From Mycoplasma sp. SG1 (GTDB lineage: Bacteria; Bacillota_I; Bacilli_A; Mycoplasmatales; SG1), in contig NZ_CP076852.1 of assembly GCF_023612375.1 (NCBI RefSeq), forward strand, positions 434,001 through 498,000: DNA of 64,000 nt. The letters are read 5' to 3'. Every line of letters begins with the position of its first letter. The first letter of the stretch is position 1. The position numbers were made by a program, and so were the translations under genes. Positions 3,618-49,131 of the stretch are shown one piece after another. The notes beneath the pieces were generated by a model. That model did no database searches. It saw nothing but the letters and a program-made list of their open reading frames with translations, and had not been told where the DNA came from.

Positions 3618-4397
3618 ATGTCTGGTCATTCAAAATTTTCAAATATAAAACATAAAAAAGCAATCCAAGATAAGAAAAAAAGTGAACTTTTTGTCAATTT
3701 TGCACAACAAATAAGAAATGCTTGTAAAAAGTATAATTCAAGTAATTTACAATTTAATCCATTACTTAAAAATCTTATTAAATCAGCTCAAAAAGCTGGA
3801 ATGAAAAAAGAAAAAATTGAAAATCTTTTAAAAACTTTTGATTCTGAATCATTAACAAGTAAAACAGAAAATATTTATAACGCTTTTTATTTTAATGATT
3901 TCTTATTTTTAGTAATTTCTAATTTTAGTTCACAAAAAGCCGAAGTTTTACAATCCTTAAAAAAACTTTTAAAAAGCTTTAAAATTAGATGAGTAGGAAC
4001 TGACTCTATTCATGGTTTAATAAGACCTTCGGGATATGGATTATTTGATTTAAATGAAGTTTTAAGGGATGATAGAGATAATCTTTTGTTAAAATTAATT
4101 GATTTTGGGATAACAGAATATTATTTTTATGGGATAGAGGATAATTATCTAGAAATTTTTTTTAACTTTTCTAAGCAGGATGAGTTAAATATTTTATTAA
4201 ATGAATTTAAAAATATTAAAGTAATTTATCTATTAGATATTTTTATTCATAACATTTATCAACAAATTGATCAAAAAAGTTATGATGGCATAGAACAAAT
4301 TTTCAAAATCTTGGCTAAAAACAAAGAAGTGAAATTAATTCACCCAAATTTTAAATATAAAAATATCAGCGATTTGCTTATTTTCGCATCAAATTAA
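3618..4397 (+). CDS. yebC: YebC/TACO1-family protein (translation factor or regulator)
   Basis: 259 residues opening with MSGHSKFSNIKHKKA, the family hallmark (usually MSGHSKWANIKHRK). It continues with DKKKSELF and an RPSGYGLFDLNE segment. The C-terminal third resembles the acidic domains of the family. Members have been described as transcriptional regulators and, more recently, as factors that relieve ribosome stalling at proline stretches. The middle section is diverged, so the function is assigned at family level. The frame crosses one TGA (Trp) near 3990. Confidence 0.9.
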
Positions 4398-4788: not shown

Positions 4789-7383
4789 ATGTTTTGAACA
4801 AAAAAATCAAAAAATAAATCTAATCTAATCAAAAAAAGTAAAAGCAGTAAAGCTATCTTTTCGTTGCGAAAAGATAAAATTGAAAAAGAAAAAAAAGAGC
4901 ATCCTTTTTTAAAAGTTCTTTTTCTTTGAGTTGTAACTTTTTCAAAAGCATTCTTAAAACAGTGTAAAAAAATTCACCGCTTTTATTTAATTCATAATAT
5001 TAAGTTTCGTTGATCACTTTTAGGACTTGTTGTTTCAGGATCATTGGCAGGGATTGGAGTTCTTTTTTCACCAGTTTCTAATAAATTTTTTCTTGACCCA
5101 TTAAAGTCACATTTTAATGCCTATTTTAATTCTTCTGGAAAAATGTATATCAAATACATTAACAAAGATATTTCCAATCCGATTAAACAAGAAGATGTAA
5201 AAAATGCTATTTCTAAATCTATTTCAACCCTATTTTCAATTTATGCTCATACCTTTAGTAGTTATTCACAAAATGACTTAACGATTAATGTTGGGGGTTC
5301 ATACAATGAATTTATGGCTGGTAAATATGTTACGCAATATTTAGTGTCAATTTCTGGCCCCCTAGATTTAATTCATCTTCTTGAAAGATATCATAATTTT
5401 CTATCAGGAACGCAAACAATTACAATAACTGATCAATGAGGAAATGGAATAGGTTACAATCCGGTTACAAAAACTATTTCTCCAACAGATCCAACTCCAT
5501 TCGCTAATCTTTATATTAAAGATGATAAAGCCTTAAACCACCATTTAGGTTGACCATCTTTAGGACAGATGAGTTTTTCACGAGCAAGTGGAAGCGGGAT
5601 TACAGCAACTGGTGATGAAAATTTAGGTAATCATCTACAAACTTCATTTGCAGCATCAGATAATGATATTTTTAAAACGATAATTTCAGATATTTATAAG
5701 CTATCACAAAAACCAATCAGTTCAACAAATCCTTGAGGATATTTTTATAAGGATAAAAATAATAATTGAATTACGGATTGAGGAAACCCTCCTTCACATT
5801 CTAAACCTTTTGATCCTAATATGGACGGACACCATAATTTTTTGATGTTTTGATTAGGTGATCCTTGGAACAATATGTATTGAAAATCAGATACTAGCAA
5901 TCCTTATACTGGTCCTTATAAGGCATGACATAAGAGAGATCCTAAGAATAATCCTTCAGAATTTTTATCATACGATTTAGTAAGACAGTTATTTCCATCT
6001 TCTGATTCGCCATTAATAGAAACAACTGGAGATAATACAAAGAATGATTTTTTAAAAAATAATAATGACTGGAAAGAGATTAATTATTTATATTCACCAT
6101 TAATTTTTGGTAATGGTCAAAGTAATTCTGCAAAATACTATTATTCATCCCCGTATTATGATAATAGTTATATGAATCCTTCTGCTAATATAAGTTTAAA
6201 TGGATCTGCTGATAAAAGCATTACCCAAAGCGATTGGATCTCATCTCAAAATAATCCTTCTGGTTCTGAATTAGCTTTTTGCTTCCTGGGAGCTTATGAC
6301 ATTTCATCTTCTTTACCAGAAATAAAACAAGATATATCTGAGCTATATTCATCTTTAAATGATAAAGGAAAATTTAACCATTATACGAACCCTTCTTATT
6401 ATGCATGACATAAATGACCTGGGAAAGATTCAAAAAGTGATACGTATTTAGATAAATTTAAAAATCCATACACAACTGATAATTTTGATATTAAAAACGT
6501 TTCTTTTACAAATGATATTGACAAGTTGACTCAGTACCCGAATAACATAAATAATTTTGCTAATTTTATTGATGATTCAACAATCAACGCAACAACTGAT
6601 ACATTTAAAAATATGTATAACCAATTGCTTGAAGATGCACAACAAGGATATGTTAATAATATCTATGCATTATATGACCAAGATCCAACAATAATGAATA
6701 TGAATAACTTATGAATTATTGGTGTAGCGCTTCTGATCTTTTTATTAATTATCATCGCATATTTCTTTGTTCGTTTTGGTTTGATGGCGATTCCGTTAAT
6801 TTTATCATTTATTTTTTATAACACTTTATTTTTAGTCTTTTTAATTCTTTTATCACCGAATTTACAACCATTTATTTTAATTATTTATTTGGTTTCATTG
6901 GTAATCTTTTTAATTTTTGGTTTAAAAAACCTTGAAAAAGTATACGGAATGATTAAAGGTATTTTACAATTACCTCACAATAAATTAGATAAAATGGCAT
7001 GAAATAAATATCATAAATCATATTACATCGATTCACTTTCATTATTAATGTCATTTATTGTTGTTTATCTAGGATATAATTTCTTTTATAACTTTTTCCA
7101 AGGGGTTATTATTGTTTGATTGTTTGGATGATTTATATCTACTATTTTATTATTCTTTTTCTGTAAATTTATCTTTTCTACAATTATCTTAACTGTTCAT
7201 AAAAATCCTGAAAAATTCCATCATTTAAAATTAAAACTTGATAAAAATGTAGCAAAAATTAATCTAAAACTAAAAATAGAAGATGAAGATAAAAGATTAA
7301 AACTGATTCTTTCAAAAAATAAGAAAAAAGCAAAAAGTCGTTTTTTTCAAAAAAAATCAAAAAAATCAAAAAACTTAAAATAA
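4789..7383 (+). CDS. secD: SecD-like subunit of the protein-export accessory complex
   Basis: 864 residues. A Lys-rich cytoplasmic leader of ~75 residues precedes one N-terminal membrane segment (SLLGLVVSGSLAGIGVLF). A long extracytoplasmic domain of roughly 550 residues is rich in Trp (encoded by TGA), Asn and Ser. A cluster of about five membrane segments (from about residue 645) and a basic tail follow. SecD with SecF uses the proton gradient to help pull secreted proteins out of the Sec channel. The assignment rests on architecture and on the secD-secF-apt order known in M. genitalium and M. pneumoniae. Classical SecD motifs are hard to see, so this is a very diverged member. Confidence 0.65.
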
Positions 7384-22828: not shown

Positions 22829-24356
22829 TCTAAATAAGAGTTTGATCCTGGCTCAGGATTAATGCTAGCGAAATGACTAATACATGCAAGTTGAACGGGA
22901 AGAGCAATCTTTCAGTAGCGAACGGGTGAGTAATATATACCTAACCTGCCTATATATCAGAAATAACAACTAGAAATGGTTGCTAATATTTGATAGTATG
23001 GTAAGAAAACAATTTTTTATCATTAAAGGGGCAATTGCCTCGTATATAGATGGGGGTATACCACATTAGCTTTGGCGTAAGGTAATGGCTTACGTAGGCG
23101 ATGATGTGTAGTTGGCCCGAGAGGGCGACCAGCCACACTGGAATTGAGATAAGGTCCAGACTCCTCCGGGAGGCAGCAGTAAGGAATTTTTCACAATGGA
23201 CGAAAGTCTGATGGAGCAATTTCGCGTGCTCGATGAAGGTCTTAGGATTGTAAAGAGCTGTCGCAAGGGAAAAAAAGAAAGATAATTGGAATGTATCTTT
23301 TTTGATGGTACCTTGCTATTAGTTACGGCTAACTATGTGCCAGCAGCCGCGGTAATACATAGGTAGCAAGCATTATCCGGAATTATTGGGTGTAAAGCGT
23401 GAGTAGGCGGTTTATTAAGTCTATGGTCAAATATCAAGGCTCAACCTTAGATGTGCCATGGAAACTAATAGACTAGAACGTAAAGGAAGGTAGTGCAATT
23501 CTGCAAGTAATGGTGATATATTTCGATATGCAGGAGAACACCTGAGGCGTAGGCGACTATCTAATTTATTGTTGACGCTCAATCACGAAGGTATGGGTAT
23601 CGAATAGCATTAGTCCGCTAGTAGTCCATACAGTAAACGATGAGCACTAAATATTGGCAGTATTGTCAGTCATTAAAGTTAACACGTTAAGTGCTCCACC
23701 TGAGTAGTACGTTCGCAAGAATAAAACTCAAAGGAATTGACGGGGACTAGCACAAGTGGTGGAGCGTGTGGTTTAATTCGATTCTAAGCGAAGAACCTTA
23801 CCAAGGTTTGACATTTGGTGCAAAGCTATAGAAATATAGTGGAGGCTATCATCAAACAGGTGGTGCATGGTTGTCGTCAGTTCGTGTCGTGAGATGTAAG
23901 GTTAAGTCCCATAACGAACGCAACCCTTCTTTTTAGTTGCTACCATTAAGTTGAGGAATCTAAAAATACAGTTAGCGTAAGCTAAACGGAGGAAAGGATG
24001 ATGACAAATCATTATGCCCTTTATACCTTGGGCTACACACGCGCTACAATGGTCAATACAATAAGTTGCAAACCAGCGATGGGGAGCTAATCTTTAAAAT
24101 TGATCTCAGTTCAGATTGAAGTCTGCAATTCGACTTCATTAAGTAGGAATCACTAGTAATCGCAAATCAGCCACGTTGCGGTGAATACGTTCTCTAGTCT
24201 TGTACACACCGCCCGTCAAACCATGAAAGTTGATAGTACTTGAAGCCAATACTAATAACCATTTTTGGATTTATTTGTCTAGAGTAAGATCAGCAATTGG
24301 GGTTAAGTCGTAACAAGGTATCCCTATGAGAACTTGGGGATGGATCACCTCCTTTC
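22829..24356 (+). rRNA. rrs: 16S ribosomal RNA
   Basis: The conserved 5' AGAGTTTGATCCTGGCTCAG is at 22837, with the GTGCCAGCAGCCGCGGTAA region at 23335, AAACTCAAAGGAATTGACGG at 23725, TTGTACACACCGCCCGTC at 24199 and GGATCACCTCCTTTCT at the 3' end. The length of about 1,528 bases is normal. The anti-Shine-Dalgarno CCTCC is present although genes in this window rarely have matching sites. No tRNA gene follows it. Ends are estimated by homology. Confidence 0.98.
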
Positions 24357-24436
24357 TATGGAGAAAAAAAGCACACTAAGTGTGTAATAAAAATCATAAA
24401 TTATTCAATTTATGGTATGATTCAATAAAAAAATAT

Positions 24437-24452
24437 GTGGATTCTTAGATTT
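24437..24452 (+). other. Right arm of the 16S rRNA processing stem, in the 16S-23S spacer
   Basis: GTGGATTCTTAGATTT pairs with 22776-22791. The rest of the 292-base spacer (24357-24648) holds no tRNA gene. It contains several AT-rich inverted repeats and the left arm of a 23S stem (around 24568-24591), which pairs with ~27614-27636. Confidence 0.85.
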
Positions 24453-24648
24453 GAAAGCTATTAACAACTTATATTTATATAATAAATATAATAATTAAGA
24501 GTTTTCAACAACTTTTGAAATGTTTTTACATTTCATATCTTTGGTTTTATAAATAATAAAATTCAACGATATTTCTTTGAAAAAATAGATAATTTATGAA
24601 TTTAAAAATTCATTGAATAATTCTTTTGCAAGTAATAAACAAAATGCG

Positions 24649-27569
<2,921 letters not shown>

Positions 27570-27670
27570 TTTTTTTTAATACGCAAAAGAATACACATTT
27601 AGTGGAGTTCATGAATATCTATTTTTTGAAAGAATATCTTTGTTTTAAGTTATCTTTCAAAACAATAAAA

Positions 27671-27760
27671 GAATGATATTAATAATGTAGTGGAAACACC
27701 TTTCCCCATCCCGAACAAAGAAGTTAAGCACTAAGATGGTTTTCGGACAAAATATCATTC
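27671..27760 (+). rRNA. rrf: 5S ribosomal RNA, drastically shortened (about 90 nt)
   Basis: Helix I is a perfect 10-bp pairing of GAATGATATT (27671-27680) with AATATCATTC (27751-27760). Helix II is TAGTG (27688-27692) with CACTA (27729-27733). Helix III and loop C carry the conserved CCCCATCCCGAAC and GAAGTTAAGCAC. The helix IV-V arm that usually spans ~40 bases is reduced to ~17 bases. They fold as GTT-TTCG-GAC (27739-27748), a three-pair stem on a UUCG tetraloop. A T9 run follows directly, so the gene end also serves as terminator. Normal 5S is ~107-120 nt. Confidence 0.88.
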
Positions 27761-27812
27761 TTTTTTTTTATAAAATTAAATAAATAATTTTATAAATTTT
27801 TTTTATATTTCA

Positions 27813-35907: not shown

Positions 35908-38900
35908 ATGAAAAATAAAAATAAATCAAAAATAATCTATTGAAAATTACTGGTTTCAATAACATTATTTACTTTTGCTACTATTTCATCATTTTCAATT
36001 ATTAGTCAAATTATAGGTGGTGATAATTCTGAAAATAATGTAACATTAAACTCTAATTTAGCAGAAAACCGTGTAAATAACTATGGTAATTTTCAACAAA
36101 ATTTTGGTGATATTTTAAAAATAGACCCTATTTTAAATGGTAAACTACTTGGAAATACCAATTTTAATAAAATATTAGCGGATCAGATTCCTTATTCAAT
36201 ACCAAAAAAATATAAATATTGGATGATGTTTGATTTTACTGGATTTTTTAATCGAAATAATACAAAAGTATTTTGCTCTAATGCGTATTATCTTAATAAA
36301 GAAGATGGAAAAAATAAATCATTAATTATCGTAAAAGATATTAACAGAGGTTATGTTATTCCGTTGGAAGCTGACTATACAGGCAATAATATAAAAAGGG
36401 TTGCATTTACAAAAATCAGGGTTTCAAAACCTATTGCTAATAAATTTGGAGAATGAATAAATAATAACGATACACTTAAAGATGTTTTTGAAACTATTAA
36501 AAATAAAATAGGTTATGTAAATGGTTTTGAATTTAATGAATTAACAAAAAATTATATAAGACATTTTACTGTTTTGAACAATGGTTTAATATCATTGCCA
36601 AATAATAACTATACAATTACAAGTAGTGAAATTACGGGAGAATTCCAATGAAAAAATAATGGAGTAAAAGGAAATAACGTTAATGTATTAACATTTCAAA
36701 ACAATAAATTAACTAACGATATTTTAAAACATTTCTCAGGTTCCTCAGAATATCAGATGGGTGTTGAGGATATTTTATCCATTGTCTTTATTATAATTAC
36801 TGCCATAACTATCGTCATACCATTTTTTGGACCTGTTATATCAACAGCTGCTGGAACAGCAGAAGCCGGTCTTGCAGGTGGAGAAGCGGCAGCTGAAGGT
36901 GCAGGACTTCTAGGTGCAGCGGCTGAAACTGGGGCCGGTTTAAGTGAAGCGACAACAACAATAGCAAGTGCTGGCGGAAATATTCTAAATGCCTTTAGAA
37001 ATATTGGTTCATATATTTATTCTGGAATAGAATATTTAAGTCCAAGTAAACCTCTTGCTAATATTATCTTTGGGGCTGCTGAAGACTGAACTTGAAAAAC
37101 AGTCGCAGAAGCTGGATTAAATATCGGACTGAGTATCTTTGTTGGAGATATTCTTCCTACATATTCAATTATTAGCAAGTTTTCAACAATAAATAATTAT
37201 GATATGTATCAAACTTCAATCACTACTGGTTATCTTTTTAATATTGGGTTAATGACTTTTTTTAGTGCCAGATTGCTTTGACAAATTAAAAACTTAGTAT
37301 TAACGTCTAAATTATTGCTAAATTCAGGTGAAATATTGTTCATAAAATTTTGAGACAGTGTTAGATTTGGTGCAAAAACAAATTTTTTTAACCCCACATA
37401 CATTGGGTCGTTTTTCATAAGATCGATTGCTAAAATGATTCCAAGTAGTATATTTTTTCTTCCAACAGTTATTAATTTTTTTAAACATTTAGAATTAATG
37501 AAAGAATCAAATTTAGGTTATATAAGTTCAAATTTTACAACCGCTTATTATTTTTTAGAAGTTCTGATTAATGCTGGAAGTTCAGGTATAGAATTAGTTT
37601 CTAATTTTATCATAGAACATCCTACTATATTTACTCGTTTATCTTCATATATGGATGCAACTGCAGGCAATCGTAATACTCATCAGGGCAGTTCTGAACA
37701 TTTCCTTCCTCCAAACGATCCTTTAGATCAACCATCTACAAGTACAGGAATCAGAATTCCTAGCGGAGGATCTGAAGATCCAACTTTACATACAATAAGA
37801 CTATTACAAAAACAAAAAAATTTATTTGGAACTCCCGATTCAACAACTTCAAATTACACAGATGCTTTAAGCGGTGAAATATCATTAAAAAAACGATCAA
37901 TTGATGATTTAAGCGATTATCAAAGTTTAGACTTCAATGAAAACAAGTTTTCATTCACATCCGATAATGTCAAACCAACAACAAATCAAGATCATATTTA
38001 TAGTGTCATTGATAAAACATCTAAAACACTCAAATCAAGCACGGATAATGAAATAAACGCATCAGGTTTTTTTTATACTCAAACTGATGAATATCCTCCA
38101 GAAGTACCACCTAAAACTTTTGGTTTATTTAGAAATAATTTATCTAATGAAGGCGATTCTATATCTGAAAAAGATAAAAGCGAAGAAGCCTCATTGTTGT
38201 GGGATGGTAAAGAATGAGACGATTATAAATTGGTTTCTTCTGACATATCTATAGATGATAGTAAATCTGAAGGTTCTTTATATTCAACACCAGAAGAATT
38301 TATAAATGGAATAGAGGAAAAAATTAATGATTTAGAACAAGATGTAAAACTAAGAAGTATAACTATTGAAAGTTTGAAAAAATTTGAAGACCACTATTCT
38401 TTGCTAAAAGGTGATGAAGAAGATAAATATTGAAATGATCAAAAAATATCTAGTTTAGTTGAAGATTATAACAAAGAAAAATGACCACAAATACTTGAAA
38501 AATTAACTTATGATAGTGATGAAAAAATAGATTATAATTTCCCTACTCTAAGACAGGATGAAGAAGATATTGACCCCATTTCCTTTCAACATGATTTAGC
38601 AGTTATTAAGTACAATTTATCAAGTAGCCAAGAAGATATTAATAATATTGAGGAGCCAGAAAAATCTATCACAGAAGAATTTGGAAGTTTAAACGACCAT
38701 TTACATGATAGTTCATTTGAAAAATCAGAAAATAATCAATTAAATGATTCTTTTATATTAGATAAAAGCTTAGATGATGAAGAAAGCATCAATCAAAACT
38801 TATCTATTGATCGAATAATTGAAACAGAAGAACAAAGATTACAAGCACAAGAACCGGTCTTAGATATCCCTCAAATAGATACTGAAGCTCAACAAATAGA

Positions 38901-41900
38901 TCAAATTTATAAAAATCCCGAAATTTTGTTTAATTTTACAGATGATGAATGTATTAAATTATCAACAGATAAAGATATAAGTTTAATATTTGATAACGGG
39001 GTTGGAGCATTTCACGCTGAATTAAGTAAAAATTCTTTCGATCCAGGAAGAGTATATATTGATCAAACAAAAATATTGGATCTTTCTAAACGAATAACCA
39101 ACAAATTTTTAAAGGAATATAAGTTTTTAAATAATAGATTTCTTAATTTTGAAAAAATAATAACAAAAATTGATGACTTTTATCATAAGGTTGCAAAAAT
39201 ATCAATCTTATATGTATCGAATAAAAATAAAGTATTAGGAATTGAAACAATAAATATTAGCGATTTTCTAAATAATTTCTTAAAAATAAACGATGAAAAT
39301 ACTATTTTAGAAAGAGGAAATGAAGAGCTTATAAACGTATTTAAAGAAAGTCAGTTAATCAATAAACTGCCTAAAAATGTTAATGTATATTTTTTTGAAA
39401 ATGAATATTTTAAAGAATTATTCTCTAGAAATAAATGAAACAATGAATATAACTTCTTGAATTTTATTTTCAGAAAATGAAACTTAAACACTATTTTAAA
39501 CCTAATAACTAAAAATAAACTTACTTTTGATGATATAACTGATGGAAAATTTAATCCAATTGCTTCTATAAGATTAAATATAAACATTGATGCTATTGAA
39601 GTCAAACCAGACAGGGGTCATAACATTTTTTGATTCAATACATATCAAGATACTAAGTTAAAACTTGTTAGTTATCAAGTATTAGAAATTAGTGATCCAG
39701 AAGATAATACGTTACAACTTTTCAAAATTCCAGAAACCGAAAATGATTTTGTTTTTGTAGAACATTCATTACTTGCAAAAAACTTACATCTTTTCAATAC
39801 AATGAAGAATCTTGCATCTGATATGAAACCATCAGCCCTTCAAAAATATATTGATAAATACTTTTTAACAAATAAATGGGATGCAAATTTATGAGAAAAA
39901 TATCAACATTATAAATGATCCCTAAATCTAAAACCTGGAATCTTAATACATGATGAATGCATTGCTGCTGAAGTTGAATATATTAAAAAAAGACAGGCTG
40001 CTATTAATGCATTGACAACAATAAATGAATTTTTTGTTCCTCCACAAAAACCTATAATTCAAGACTTAAAAACCCAAGAACTAACTGATCAACCAACTAA
40101 TAACATAATCTCAGAAAGTAATGAAATAGACCAAGTTTCAAAATTAAATGAACAAACAATAGTAGAAGATAAAGCTGAAGCGAGAAACATAACATCTCCA
40201 CAAGAAGAAAGAGCGGAAGATAAAACAGAAGATCCTAATACAAAAGACAGTAAGAATATTAGTGTTGATGGCGAATTAAGGGAAAACTTAAATATAGTAA
40301 ATGAATATGTTAATCCTTCAATAGAATCTATAATCAAAGATTCATCAATCCACGAACCAACTAATAACAAAATCCAAGAGCAAGAGTTTAATAACTTTTT
40401 TCGTGGATTGATGAATCGTATGAACCAAATTTCAGATTTAAATGAAGAAAGAGAAAATTTAATAAGTCAAAAAAATGCAGAACTAATCAATCAAATTTAT
40501 AAAAATCCAGAAATTTTATTTAATTTTAAAGATGATGAATTAATTCAATTACCGTCAAATAAAGATATTCATTTTATATCTGATAACGGATTTAAAGAAG
40601 CATACACTGAATTAAGGAGTGCTACTTCTCTTGATCAAATAAGACTTCAAAATATAATCAACAAAGCGAATGAAACAATTAAACCTTCTGACGAATATAA
40701 GTTTTTAAATAATAATCTTCTTCATTTTGATGAAATAATAACAAAAATTGATGATTTTTATCGTAAGGTTGCAAAAATATCAATTCTATATGTATCAAAT
40801 AAAAATAAAGTATTAGGAATTGAAACGATAAATATTAGCGATTTTCTAAATAATTTCTTAAAAATAAACTCAGAAAATAATATTTTAGAAAGAGGAAATG
40901 AAGAACTTTCAAATGTATTTAAAGAAAGTAAGTTAATTAATAAACTACCTAAAAATGTTAATGCGTATTTTCTAGAAAATAAATATTTTAAAGATTTGTT
41001 TTCTAGAAATGAATGAAACAATGAATATAACTTCTTGAATTTTATTTTAAAAAAATGAAATTTAAATACTACTTTAAATTTAATGAATGCCAATAAATTT
41101 ACTTTTGATGATTTATCTAATGACAAACTTAATCCAATTAATGCTATAAAGTTAACTTTAAGTGTTGATAGAATTAAACCAGATAATGTTTCTTGATTCA
41201 ATCGAAGTGGAAGTAGTAAATTAAAACTTGTTAATTATGAAGTATTGGAAATGAATGATTCAACAAATAATCCAGTAAAACTTTTTAAAATCCCAGAAAC
41301 TGGAAATGACTTTGTTTTTGTAGAACATTCATTACTTGCAAAAAACTTACATCTTTTCAATACAATGAAGAATCTTGCATCTGATATGAAACCATCTGCC
41401 CTTCAAAAATATATTGATAAATACTTTTTAACAAAGAAATGGGATGCAAGTTTATGGGAAAAATGTAAAAATTATAAATGGTCTCTAAGCATACAACCCG
41501 GATATTGAGATCAAGAAAATGATCAATTGAATGATTTAGATTTTGATTTATCTAAAAATGGATTATCTAGTGACAATGAAGATCTTTTATCATCAAAAAA
41601 TATAACCGAAAGAGGAAAATCGTTATTGCAAGATGATGAAGAATGACATGATGCAAAATCAAATACTTCAAAAATATCTATAAGTACCCAATCTGAAGAA
41701 TCTGAATATTTATTAACAAATGAATATATAACTAACGCAGAACAAAAAATTAATGATTTAAAACAAGGGTTAGAAAAAACTGACCAAAAAGGTCAATTAA
41801 CTATTGAATCATTGAAAAATTTAGAAGCGAAAGAATCAACATCGGTTACTCCAAGTCCAATAGGCAGTGAAGTTATTAAATTCGATCAAATTTATAAAAA

Positions 41901-44900
41901 TGTAGAAATTTTATTTGATTTTAAAAACAATGAACTTATTCAATTACCAACAGAAAAATATATATATTGAATATCTGTTAACGGGGTCAGGGAGTTATAC
42001 AATAAAATAATTAACAATTTTGATTCTCAAGAAAAATTATTAGATCCTGCAGGAGTAGATAGTGTAGTTGAGCCTTTTGAACCATATAAGTTTTTAGATA
42101 ATAATCATCTCCGTTTTGATGAAATAATAACAAAAATTGATGATTTTTATCATAAGGTTGCAAAAATATCAATTCTATATGTATCAAATAAAAATAAAGT
42201 ATTAGGAATTGAAACGATAAATATTAGCGATTTTCTAAATAATTTCTTAAAAATAAACTCAGAAAATAATATTTTAGAAAGAGGAAATGAAGAACTTTCA
42301 AATGTATTTAAAGAAAGTAAGTTAATTAATAAACTACCTAAAAATGTTAATGCGTATTTTCTAGAAAATAAATATTTTAAAGATTTGTTTTCTAGAAATG
42401 AATGAAACAATGAATATAACTTCTTGAATTTTATTTTAAAAAAATGAAATTTAAATACTACTTTAAATTTAATGAATGCCAATAAATTTACTTTTGATGA
42501 TTTATCTAATGACAAACTTAATCCAATTAATGCTATAAAGTTAACTTTAAGTGTTGATAGAATTAAACCAGATAATGTTTCTTGATTCAATCGAAGTGGA
42601 AGTAGTAAATTAAAACTTGTTAATTATGAAGTATTGGAAATGAATGATTCAACAAATAATCCAGTAAAACTTTTTAAAATCCCAGAAACTGGAAATGACT
42701 TTGTTTTTGTGGAGCATTCAATCCTTAAAAACAACTTATCCCTTTTCAAAACAATGAAAAAATATATATATGTCGCGGATAAACTATCCCTTCAAAAATT
42801 TATTAATGAAAATTTTTTAACAAAGAGATGAGATGCAAATTTATGGGAAAAATATAGCGGATACAAATGATCTAAAAATTTAAAACATGAAAGCTTAAAA
42901 AATGATGAAAATATTACAACTAAGATTGAATCTTCTGTAAACCAAGTCGCTTCAAATGAAGAGGCAACAAAAGATATTGAAAAAGCTAAAAACGATGATT
43001 TTTATGCTAATTACTCAGAACCAGAAAGATTACAATTCTGAGAAAATTTAAAAATACCAGAAGATAGTATTTATGATTATAAAATAACAAATAACCCTGA
43101 GACAATAGAGTCAATGTACGATTATGATCCTTTAACTGAAAATCTATTAAATGTTGATCTTATCGTAGACCAAATATCTAAAACAAAAGAAATCTATGAT
43201 GATAATATTGATTTAGAATCAGTTCCGATTAATAATACTATTTTGGATAAAACTGATAGTATTGCTAATGATGAACCAGAAAAAAAATTAATAAAACCAG
43301 GAGAAATAATTAATAGATCTGAGCTAATAATAGATTCAGCTATCGAAACTGATAAGGATTCTGTTGTATACTTTAGTAATTTTATCAAAATGAATAAAGA
43401 TGCGTTTATAAATGCGTTTATTCCCTATAATAATGGTCATAAAACTATATGATATTTCGATGAAGAGTTATTTTTAAACATTATTTCTACTTTTTCTACT
43501 ATAAACTTAGAAATATTTGAAAGAATAGTAAATAATGATGAAATTATTTCTGATAAAGATTTTAACCAAATTCTTAAAATCATCGATATAAAAAATCCAT
43601 CCATAATAGAAGCGTTTAAAAATTATTTTAATAATATAAATAATCACAAATTATTTAATAATCATGTTAAAAAAACTATTTTATTAACCGATGACGTTGA
43701 TTTAAAAGACTATAAAACAATAACATCCATAATATTAAATGATATATCTGAGATTAAAAACAATCCTGGTTCTTCTAATACTATTTATCCAAGCAACTTT
43801 TTCAATGATATTCTATTTAACTGTAAAGTTCAACACTTCTTCCGAACAAATCAAGACTTAATTAATTTTGGTCTAAAAAATAAATTGATTAAAATTCTTG
43901 ACAATAATGTAGTATTTATTACGGATAATAATTTTCAATTTATGAATCACGTTTATAAACTTTTTGGTTTAAAACCGTTGAGATATTTAAATCTATACTT
44001 TAAAAAACTAAATATTATGTTGTCTCAAAACTCTTGAAGTATAGATAGAATAATTGAAGAGTATTTCCCTCCACTTATGAAAATAAAATTATATGATTCA
44101 GACTTTGATGAAGTAAATATTGAAGGTAATGAAAGTGATAGCTTTTATCATTCTATTAATATATCGAATAAATATATTAATGTTCCAACTAATGATTTAT
44201 TAGATGGTAGCTTTGAACTAAAAACAACCGACCAACTAATGGAACTTGAAAACTTTAGTAAAAGAACTTTTACTAAAGTTGATATTGAAATCAAATTTAA
44301 CGATGCATTAAAACATGCTATTGTAGACAATCCTAATCTAAATTTTCTTCATTGATATGTTGTTAATGAAGCGTATAACAGTCTTACCCAAAATGATATT
44401 GCATTTATTAATACTGATGAAAAATTTTTTAGGTTTGATGTTATAGATTTGGAATCTAATAAAGCAAGTCAATATTGAATGACTAAATCTGAATTTACTT
44501 CATGATTTAATTCTATAGATCCTATAAATGAATCCGATCTAATAGATCCCAATCTTCTTCAAGAAAAACTAGTAGCATCTATTAAAACTATTTGAGAAGA
44601 GCAAAACAAAGACATTAGTATCTTTGATCATGAAAAATATTTTTTAAATTTTGCACCAAAAGATATTCCAAATAGTTATTGAATATGTCTAAATAAACAT
44701 CTAATTAATAATTTAAGCATAATGAAAAGTTTTACTTTATCAAAAATAATGGATTACGCTAGAAAATTAGCTAAAGTTTTTAATCCAACCGCTACAAAAA
44801 ATTTATCACCCAGCGATATATATAGTTTTAAAACAGTTAATAACGCAGAAATTAAAGATTTATATTTCAAACTCTTTGATAAATGACTAGAACCAAGTTA

Positions 44901-47900
44901 TAAAATGAGCACAGTTGATGCTTATTATATAAATGATGCTGTTGATAGAACCGACAATCTACTTGCTAAAGTAAATGTTAGAATGATGATTCCAAAATCA
45001 TTTAATACAAATAAAATTGCTAATAAATTGTGATTTTTTGCTAAAATACGTGAACTAAACTTTTTTGCCATTAAAACTAAAAATCAAAAATTAATAATAA
45101 CTGATTCATCATGAGCTGATCTTAAAAAACATTTTTCAACAGAACAACTAAAACTTATTAAAGACTTTATTAATTTTACTAATGTTAAAATTTTTAGAAA
45201 TAAAGAAACTAAATGAGCAGTAGATAGTTATAATGTAATGCCAAAAAACATTGAATTAATCAAAAATGAATATATAAAAAATGTTAATAATTTTTATCAT
45301 TATTTAATTTCAAATATTAAAAAAATTAATTTCCAAGAATTGTTAATAAATAAAAGTGAGTCATTTATATTCTTAATAAAAAATAAAATTATTCCTGTAA
45401 ATGATTCTTCATATTATTATTTTGATTTCAATTTTTCAACTGAACAATGACAAAACATTTATTTAAATTGCCCAGATAAAAATAAAGAATACATGGTTAA
45501 ATGATTTGAAAAAATGATTAATGTAATATCTGAACCTATTAACGTATTTGACCATATTGAACCTGCATTTTGAATAAATACCGATACCCTTGAATATAAT
45601 AATATTCCAAAAATTGAGTTATCAAACCATATTTACTTATACAGAGATTTTGAAAAATTTTTTAAATTATTCCCTAATGCAAACATTTCTAACTTTATTT
45701 CAGTTAGTCAAGATATACATGGACGTTATTACGAATATACTGAAAAAATACAAAGTGTTAATTTTAATAAAAATTTAGTGGGTTGATTTGATAATAATTA
45801 CGAAAAAAGAGCATTAACAGATATAAATAATAATCCATTAAATAATTTGATCGCATTACAAATATTATCAAATAATAATTCTCAACAAAATATAATTGAT
45901 ATTTCAGCTAATGAAGCAGTTGTAGATTTATTGGTTAAATTGTATAAAATAGAAAATTCATCACAATTATTTTATAAATTTATAAACGAAAATGTTCAAA
46001 ATTATCAATTTGCTGAAAATATAATTTCTTTGACTAATGAAGTGTTTGGTGTAAAAGATAATCATGCTTTGTCTATAATTTTAGAAAATATAAAAGAAAT
46101 AACCACTCTATGCAGTTTGGATGAGTTTATTACTAAGTTTTATCCTGATTTTGACATTGACAATCAAACTTTAGTTTATGGAATGCATTTGGAATCATTT
46201 CATTTGAAAAATAATGGACTTTCGCCAAAAGAGTATATAAAAATAAATGTTTTGCTAAAAAATTTCAAACAATTTATTCCGTTTATAGAATCTATTAAAA
46301 AAGTTAGTATAAAACAACAATCGTTTAATTTTCAAATTTTTAAAAAGGAACTATTAAACTATACAAGAACATTACACTTTTTATTTGATAAAGAACAACT
46401 AAAAAAATTAATCCCTGATTTAAATAGAACATCAAGATCAATAGAACCAGAAGTTTCTAATAATTACGAAAACAAATATATTACAGAAATAATTAGCAAA
46501 AAGTATACAAAAAGTAGAGCAAAATATGGAGTGATACCGAAAATAAATATAAAATTAAAAGTGCCCACTGGTCTTGAAACAACTCTTGGAGACGGCAATT
46601 TCCCAACAAGAATTAATGATAACACAAAAATAATTTCACTTGCGCAAGTAGAAAAAGATAAAACAAATATTCTAAATGTTAAAAAATATATTCCCGTTAC
46701 ACGCGGTATGTTTAAAAGTATTATAAAAAATATTTTAGAATCGAACTTAAAAGTTTTATTAAATTCTATCTCAGAAAGACATTTAGATAGAAATAACGGA
46801 GAAGCATCAAGTTCATTATCCGATGATCCATTTATTTTTAATACATTACAATATAAATTTGATTCAATTGATGATTACACCAGAGCTGTATTGGGTTTTA
46901 ATCGTTCAGTTAAAATGGCTATCTTAAAACTTACATTACCAGAACATGAATATGTAAATGCTATCGAATCGCTACCTGATTTTATTACAATAATTCATGA
47001 TAATTCTTTATTAGATATTCGTAAGTATTTCACAGAATTTAATATACCAATATTTAATCCTGAAAATGATTTTAAAATGTTTTTGGATGGAATATTTAAT
47101 TCAAATTTAAGTTCTATAATGAGTTTTATATCAACATATGAATATTTTAAAAATATGAATATAACTTCTAAAAATATAAAATTAAAAATCAAAAATTCTC
47201 TTTTTGCAGAAAATAATATTTTAATTGATCTAAAACATATTAAAGAAATCGATGCACAAATAAGATTTAATATATTTAACGGAGAAAATGCTAATTTTAA
47301 TTACTGACTTCCTCAAAAAAATGAATTACCATTTAAGTTAGATCAAATAGTGAATCTCTTTGTGGACCCCGATAATGTTTTTAAATACAATTTTACTACA
47401 CATGATTGTAACGATAAGATATATGAAAAAATATTCTTTAATTGAATTAGTTTCAAAAGGAATAAAATGATTCCGCTTGAAAAATTTAAAGAATTATTAG
47501 ATTTAAATTGAATAAAATTAAAAAATGGAAGAATGTCTGAAGCAGAGTATAATCAAGCGAGAAAAATTATTTATCTACCTAATAAATTACTGTATAAAAT
47601 ATCATTTGCTTTAAGACCGAAATCATTTTTATCTTTAATCAATTGAATAGTCGAGAATAATAAAGAATATATTCTTGCTATTCAAAAACAATTATCTTTA
47701 GACAAATTTCACTCTGAAAAAGTTGTAACAAAATGAATAGAGGAGCAATATAATAAAATCTTTAAACACAATATTTTATTAAAAAGTAGTGAAAATTTCC
47801 TTAAATGAACTAACTTTACAACTCAAAATTTAAATGAAAAATGGAGTATTGATAACAAATCTTTAGAATATATTCCTTTAAAATATCCACATTTATACCA

Positions 47901-49131
47901 TGCTTTAGAATTACATAAAAGCGATAATGCTATGTGTGTTTGAATTAATCTAAATATAAATAATATTGAAAAATCAATAAGAATTAATATAAATGATTTA
48001 ATAAATAACGTTTTTGATAAAAACTTTGATAAATATTTAGAGAAAGCGAGTTCTACAGAACAACGATTAACACATCATGAACAAATAATGTTATTGAATT
48101 TAAAACAAAAAATAATTTCTAAAACTATAAATCACATAATACATCAAATATACGATTGATTAATAAAAAATAATGTTTTTAAAGAGTATAGATTATCATA
48201 TATTAATTTATTATTTGATAGTCAACTTATAACATATATAAAAAACTTTAATTTTAATGTTTGATCAATTATTACAGATTCATTTATTTATCTTCATGAC
48301 AAACAGATAAAAGATATTATTGGCACAAATGTAGAAAAACTAACAATTCCTACTCAATCAATCGATAATAATTATTCAATAACTTCAGATACAAGAAATC
48401 GTATGATGAATTACTCTCATCAACTTTTTGAATTAAATACGGGAGTGTGACTTGTTAACTTTAATAATTCAATATCAAATGATAAACTTCTTGAAATGTT
48501 TAATGGATGAATATTGCATGCGAAAAGATTGTTAAATTTAAATACTGATATTCAATATAATTTATCCATGATAAAAAGTGATATTTTACAATATTTAAAA
48601 CCACACTTTAAATATTGTATAAGTCTTGAAAAATTTAAAGAATTTAATAAAATGGAACTTGCTGGCATTAAACCGTATAAAATTATTAAAAATATCAGAC
48701 AAACCCAATTAAAAAATGTTATTATTGAGGATATTCAAGTAATGGATGGACTGAGCAATAAAAGAATTGAAGAATTTAAAATATTTTTAAATCAAATGGG
48801 ACATTCATTAATATCTATACCAAAAGAATCTATTTTACGTCATACTGATATAATCCAAGCTTTAGTTTTCGATGAAGTTAATAAAAAAGTTGTCTCTTTG
48901 ATTAATATTGATCTATCTTTTAATACTCTAACAAATATAAGAGAATTTATCATTAATAATATGCATTCAGAAAAAATAGCATTATCAAAAAATTATAAAT
49001 TTATAATTTACTATAACTCTAATGTCGTTGATAGCATATATCAAAATGCAACTTCTTACGAAGATGCTAAAATGATGATAAAAGGATTAAATGATTTCGT
49101 CTACAAAAAACATAATTTATTAATAGATTAA
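35908..49131 (+). CDS. Giant membrane-anchored repeat protein, about 4,407 residues
   Basis: A single frame of 13.2 kb with TGA as Trp; I read the joins between its apparent pieces and found no TAA or TAG. Residues ~12-32 form a signal-anchor helix. A hydrophobic block at ~284-320, an Ala/Gly/Glu-rich stretch to ~350 and further hydrophobic helices to ~560 suggest several membrane passes. An acidic, Ser/Asn-rich linker follows to ~995. Three ~330-residue modules (from about 997, 1527 and 1992) are separated by acidic linkers. About 2,100 further Asn/Lys/Ile-rich residues with scattered aromatic Trp complete it. Function unknown; size recalls gliding or adhesion giants of mycoplasmas, but I see no homology. 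Downstream are a PP2C phosphatase and a kinase. Flanked by AT-rich gaps. Confidence 0.85.
38898..39950 (+). repeat. Repeat module 1 of the giant protein
   Basis: Begins IDQIYKNPEILFNFTDDE and contains KVAKISILYVSNKNKVLG, NISDFLNNFLKIN, INKLPKNVN and ends near KYFLTNKWDANLWEKYQHYKW. Diverged from modules 2 and 3 in its centre, but its 3' end (39757-39870) is nearly identical to 41320-41433 of module 2. Confidence 0.85.
40490..41505 (+). repeat. Repeat module 2 of the giant protein
   Basis: Same order of blocks as module 1 (INQIYKNPEILFNFKDDE onward). Bases 40763-41321 match 42152-42710 of module 3 with no difference found on reading, at a fixed offset of 1,389 bases (463 codons). Confidence 0.88.
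41885..42880 (+). repeat. Repeat module 3 of the giant protein
   Basis: Begins FDQIYKNVEILFDFKNNE. Its centre is identical to module 2 over about 560 bases. Both flanks differ: the entry block (41940-42120) and the end after 42710 (SILKNNLSLFKTMKKY) are unique to it. Confidence 0.88.

Follow-up and report, generated by a model that had tools for sequence, protein, structure and literature searches.

Can a bacterium live with a 5S rRNA that lacks one of its three domains? The question is raised by the single rrn operon of Mycoplasma sp. SG1 (22830-27760, in the order 16S, 23S, 5S), in which the last gene is only 90 nt long. The operon lies in a stretch of 64,000 nt, called the window below, which covers positions 434001-498000 of a genome assembled as one contig (622,752 bp); the genome has an estimated completeness of 81% and is represented by one assembly, without close relatives. 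The arm at stake is the gamma domain, for which two roles have been proposed, that of a clamp on domains II and V of the 23S rRNA and that of a signal relay connecting the peptidyl transferase centre with the GTPase centre. The features concerned, in window coordinates, are:

22830..24355, + strand, 16S rRNA gene of the operon (Rfam RF00177, 1322.7 bits, full model)
24653..27567, + strand, 23S rRNA gene, sole copy found in the genome (Rfam RF02541, 2653.5 bits; 96.4% of consensus pairs kept)
27671..27760, + strand, 5S rRNA gene of 90 nt without the normal gamma domain (Rfam RF00001, 57.3 bits; sole 5S found in the genome)
27671..27680, + strand, helix I, 5' strand (10 of 10 pairs with 27751-27760; 5 of 9 compared pairs changed on both sides relative to the sister genome, G001)
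27685..27692, + strand, helix II, 5' strand (AU-G-UAGUG), pairing with 27729-27737
27700..27720, + strand, helix III (27700-27703/27717-27720) and loop C (27704-27716), from sequence and alignment
27729..27737, + strand, helix II, 3' strand (CACUA-AG-AU), from pairing with the 5' strand
27738..27750, + strand, 13-nt remnant replacing the gamma domain (helices IV and V, loops D and E), from the Rfam alignment and the far longer arms in relatives
27751..27760, + strand, helix I, 3' strand, from sequence and pairing
27761..27769, + strand, run of nine T directly 3' of the 5S gene, probably the transcription end

Elsewhere in the window, two open frames on the + strand may be recorded in passing: one of 4407 codons under code 4 (35908-49131), with no Pfam match in its first 1364 residues, and one of 864 amino acids (4789-7383) with no Pfam match.

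We first consider whether the gene is a 5S rRNA gene at all. An earlier note on this DNA, made from its letters alone, had described it as a real mollicute 5S rRNA of about 90 nt, and the Rfam model agrees: RF00001 matches positions 27672-27760 of the + strand over its full span (model positions 1-120) with 57.3 bits (E 5.6e-10), against a gathering threshold of 38 bits. The alpha domain is present as a terminal helix I with all ten pairs. The beta domain is present as well, with helices II and III and a loop C of sequence CCCCATCCCGAAC that carries CCGAAC; the core of helix II (27688-27692/27729-27733) is extended by outer A-U and U-A pairs. The perfect 10-bp helix I, the helix II, the conserved loop C and the run of nine T on which that note relied are therefore all in the sequence. 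Moreover, an alignment of 11 5S genes, that of E. coli among them, has 22 invariant columns, and the gene keeps all of these. The gamma domain is another matter. Helix II is separated from the 3' strand of helix I by no more than the 13 nt GGTTTTCGGACAA, the strands of loop E are absent, and in the Rfam alignment just 5 bases stand against 36 model positions in the helix IV-V arm. Because the gamma domain is absent, the RNA is filed here as a two-domain variant and not as a canonical three-domain 5S rRNA. A point against a working 5S is that the minimum-free-energy fold of the isolated RNA differs from the 5S fold (-14.1 versus -8.2 kcal/mol), although the 5S RNAs of relatives also fold imperfectly in isolation.

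We then asked how unusual such a short arm is. A 5S match was obtained in 285 of the 320 genomes of the order. Counting hits to the whole model away from contig ends, and among the matches listed, which take in all but about 40 genomes, the 5S rRNAs of relatives measure 103-123 nt with the sole exception of genome G284 (92 nt). The gamma arm has about 28-35 nt in relatives versus 13 nt here, so that the loss of the helix IV-V arm reported in the earlier note holds; likewise, the GAAGTTAAG motif is followed by 46-66 nt in relatives, 32 nt in the window and 35 nt in G284. The nearest comparison is offered by G001, the sister of the window's lineage in the 23S tree (support 100/99), which has an ordinary 5S of 107 nt with a loop-E-type arm. 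As a consequence, the arm was most simply lost on the window's own branch, after the split from G001. In helix I, five of the nine pairs compared between the two genomes are changed on both sides, two on one side, and none is broken.

Other arrangements of 5S sequence were met during this survey. Tandem triplets of 5S genes spaced by about 155 nt occur in two genomes (G060:C1:654808-655222 and G052:C1:753280-753691). In two clostridial genomes (L133, about 2115-2310, + strand; L134, about 3790-3920, minus-strand coordinates), a near-identical copy of helix III and loop C stands upstream of an unrelated gene, with a terminator-like hairpin and a ribosome-binding site in between; by eye the gene product is nucleotidyltransferase-like in one genome and kinase/NUDIX-like in the other. 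These copies may be a 5S-mimic leader.

What stands in the place of the arm? According to the earlier note it was replaced by a UUCG mini-hairpin, and such a structure could take over part of the role of helix IV and loop D. Three pairs over the UUCG can indeed be drawn at 27739-27748 (G27739-C27748, U27740-A27747 and U27741-G27746), and G284 carries a longer hairpin, of 6 bp, at the same place. However, this stem adds only about -0.5 kcal/mol to the window 5S, a stem equally long is formed by 78% of shuffles of the 13 nt, and the isolated arm is predicted to be unpaired. The closing pair is U.G, and the extra-stable form of the UUCG loop closes with C-G. Furthermore, a stem of 3 bp would be too short to reach helix 39, 42 or 89 of the 23S rRNA. 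A structured replacement of the arm thus appears unlikely, and the mini-hairpin stands as unproven in that role; positions 27738-27750 are treated here as a linker.

A different explanation is that the gene is decaying, either because the true 5S gene lies in a part of the genome that the contig lacks or because the ribosome has come to do without 5S rRNA. In favour of this are the completeness estimate of 81% and a relative without any 5S at the normal place, G007. This genome (one contig of 662 kb; L244, G007:C1:473000-480500; L095) shows no 5S match anywhere in its contig and has a terminator-like hairpin after the 23S gene instead, its close relatives G004 and G006 having a normal 5S there; in G007 the gene either falls within missing sequence or is lost or unrecognisable. 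In the window, several observations speak against decay, as the earlier note had also argued. Helix I is fully paired, with double changes, and the invariant bases are kept. The gene adjoins the 23S gene in the sole rrn operon found, and uL5 and uL18 are encoded in an intact S10-spc operon. A second full-length 5S gene, the finding that the note had named as decisive against its own reading, was not found by the RF00001 model search of the 622,752-bp contig; nor was a second 23S gene found in the genome. Also, the RNase P RNA within the window is complete according to Rfam, which speaks against a general decay of RNA genes. We consider decay of the 5S gene quite unlikely.

The 23S rRNA of the same operon bears on this point. 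Of the 1201 positions at which 16 relatives and E. coli do not vary, it is changed at 48, where six relatives put through the same comparison have 2-15 changes each. It nevertheless forms canonical pairs at 96.4% of the consensus, computed without the window, the other rows ranging from 93.7 to 98.9%. With G001 left out, 16 departures fall at pairs that are invariant elsewhere, and these comprise nine double compensations (2523-2540, 2524-2539 and 976-987 are examples), four half changes and three broken pairs. Altogether, the compensation in helix I and in the 23S rRNA, the single copy, the complete RNase P RNA and the presence of uL5 and uL18 argue for a ribosome that is functional and fast-evolving rather than decaying.

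It could also be asked whether the organism has some 18-20 bases of the arm that the contig lacks through an error of assembly or consensus. The gene is indeed known from one assembly, of a genome estimated to be 81% complete. Yet the helix ends meet cleanly on either side of the remnant, and in the S10-spc operon more than 20 ribosomal-protein genes have open frames free of frameshifts, which indicates that the consensus is not error-rich. In addition, the bases of the remnant differ from those of the arm of G001, so one clean deletion cannot yield it, and the same kind of loss is seen in two other lineages. An error of this kind is therefore very unlikely. Finally, a split 5S, with a separately encoded gamma domain joining in trans as in fragmented mitochondrial rRNAs, is hardly credible: a lone short arm would escape the 5S model search, but no positive evidence for one was found, the genome has a single 5S match, and no arm sequence was seen in the operon.

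If the arm is really absent, its partners in the ribosome deserve attention. In the canonical ribosome the middle of the 5S rRNA (helices IV and V, loop E) touches helix 38 of the 23S rRNA, and loop D touches helices 39, 42 and 89 (review, PMC3614586). In the window 23S, helices 38, 39, 42-44 and 89 and the region of helices 81-88 have their usual length within about one base. None of the 48 window-specific changes at the 1201 otherwise invariant positions falls in helix 38 or 39, and helix 89 has one (A2482C). The GTPase-associated region has five (1062, 1070, 1076, 1082 and 1102), a weak excess; since the 1062/1076 pair is common to the window and G001, no link of these changes to the 5S is claimed. 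Compensation in length for the lost arm was considered and set aside, the docking helices being near normal and no growth of the 23S into the gap being seen; the lack of any compensating change in these helices counts against a working 5S without the arm. The earlier note had stated that the central protuberance must be remodelled; with one-base indels at most in helices 38, 39, 42 and 89, and helices 38 and 39 free of window-specific change, we would say only that it may be.

The protein bL25, which binds loop E, calls for a similar correction. Loss of the bL25 site is not specific to the window: a search that detected the protein in 8 of 14 control genomes gave no bL25 in any of 45 genomes of the order, most of which keep loop E. 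It follows that the loop E site was probably already unoccupied by bL25 in the order before the arm was lost. For the same reason, the loss of bL25 is rejected as the specific cause: it is order-wide, yet most genomes retain the loop. Among the proteins that are present, uL5 of the window's genome (G000, L250:6537-7115) reads LPNTRDFYG where relatives have LPRVRDFRG and is missing NMGxGD, with a clear Pfam match.

The reading that we hold to be probable is that the window 5S serves the organism as its working 5S rRNA and has come down to two domains by loss of the gamma domain after the split from G001. The alpha domain (helix I) and the beta domain (helices II and III, loops B and C) would be retained, and helices IV and V with loops D and E would have given way to a 13-nt linker at the three-way junction, in a short RNA that would still be encoded last in the single rrn operon. 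We infer that this RNA is expressed and incorporated into ribosomes, where uL18 and uL5 would still be bound through the alpha and beta domains and the head of the central protuberance would still be built. The gamma contacts, between the middle of the 5S and helix 38 and between loop D and helices 39, 42 and 89, would be absent or taken over by something not yet seen. As to how the loss came about, the order-wide loss of bL25 may have freed the arm from one constraint; in a genome that is small and evolves fast, selection may have relaxed enough to let the rest of it go. The ribosome would tolerate the loss, although its assembly might be slower or its translocation altered. Strong alteration of the 5S region is compatible with a ribosome that still works, as engineered E. 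coli strains with the 5S inserted into the 23S rRNA show (PMC7283268).

The window's lineage does not seem to be alone. The 5S of G284 (92 nt; G284:C1:692735-692826, minus strand; L103) has for an arm one 6-bp hairpin without loop E. It is the sole 5S found in a one-contig genome of 1.22 Mb (92% complete) with a single 23S gene. In the 23S tree this genome groups with G214 and G223 (support 100/100), which we take to be hemoplasma-like, its lineage being sister to such genomes. Nine hemoplasma-like genomes (G214-G219 and G221-G223; L039, L045, L048, L049, L052, L054, L056, L057 and L060) have an arm of near-normal length from which the loop E motif is missing; remodelling of the arm is thus wider in the clade of G284. 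As a separate observation, uL18 is strongly diverged in G214 and G217 (46-48 bits versus 87-162 elsewhere). The third case, G320, is a single short-read MAG from the rumen (Erysipelotrichaceae, RUG14851) and came from a pattern scan of genome contigs for a 5S with an early T run, which gave mostly chance matches among the matches listed. Its 5S of 76 nt (G320:C1:239-314; L135/L257), the sole one found in the MAG, sits directly after the 3' end of the 23S gene, and the arm is fully absent; the 5S of its relatives has about 104-116 nt, counting whole-model hits away from contig ends. Compared with close relatives (L281, L284), the 5' side of loop A and helix II reads GGCCTAAGAGCAGTG instead of GGCGATAGCGCAGTG and the 3' side is changed to match, a pattern not expected from bases simply dropped in assembly. 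A Bacteroidales MAG (L165) was discarded: its gene looks like a truncated copy, and the genome also holds another partial 5S.

Because the lineages of the window, G284 and G320 are far apart, the loss looks convergent. We lean towards the view that some bacteria can do without the gamma domain, and that at least three losses of it have produced two-domain 5S rRNAs in nature. If so, an arm thought important to the ribosome may be dispensable, and bacteria living with a gamma-less 5S would be a natural deletion experiment on whether it is needed in assembly, in signalling or in neither. For annotation, the suggestion is that a 5S gene of 76-92 nt be kept and not thrown out as a fragment.

How does the window 5S compare with the forms already described? 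It resembles the canonical bacterial 5S (RF00001, mollicute type, 103-123 nt) in its place in the operon, in helices I-III, in loops A-C and in the invariant bases, and it is present in single copy as in many relatives; it differs in its total of 90 nt and in a gamma remnant of 13 nt without loop E or D. The 5S rRNAs of G284 and G320 likewise keep the alpha and beta domains, have the gamma domain reduced or absent and are the sole 5S of their genomes; the former retains one 6-bp hairpin and the latter nothing of the arm, and both are far from the window's lineage. To our knowledge no gamma-less bacterial 5S has been reported, and none was found in a literature search that mostly did not reach subscription papers; on these grounds it is a new form of a known RNA. 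A survey of unusual bacterial and archaeal 5S rRNAs concerns insertions (PMC7812874). These expanded molecules also depart from the standard size, but by gaining sequence and not by losing a domain. Algal mitochondria offer the other case in which a large part of the 5S has gone. In Polytomella magna, the alpha domain and part of the beta domain are missing and the mitochondrial 5S was recognised through its conserved gamma domain (PMC9576764), and in the L3a RNA of Chlamydomonas mitochondria only the gamma domain has its characteristic form and contacts helix 38 (PMC8660880). In these mitochondria the reduced RNA still sits in the central protuberance. The reduced 5S rRNAs of known structure, among those found, kept the gamma arm (PMC9576764, PMC8660880). 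The window 5S is thus not of the algal mitochondrial type, in which the gamma domain is retained and the alpha and beta domains are lost or divergent, but its reverse.
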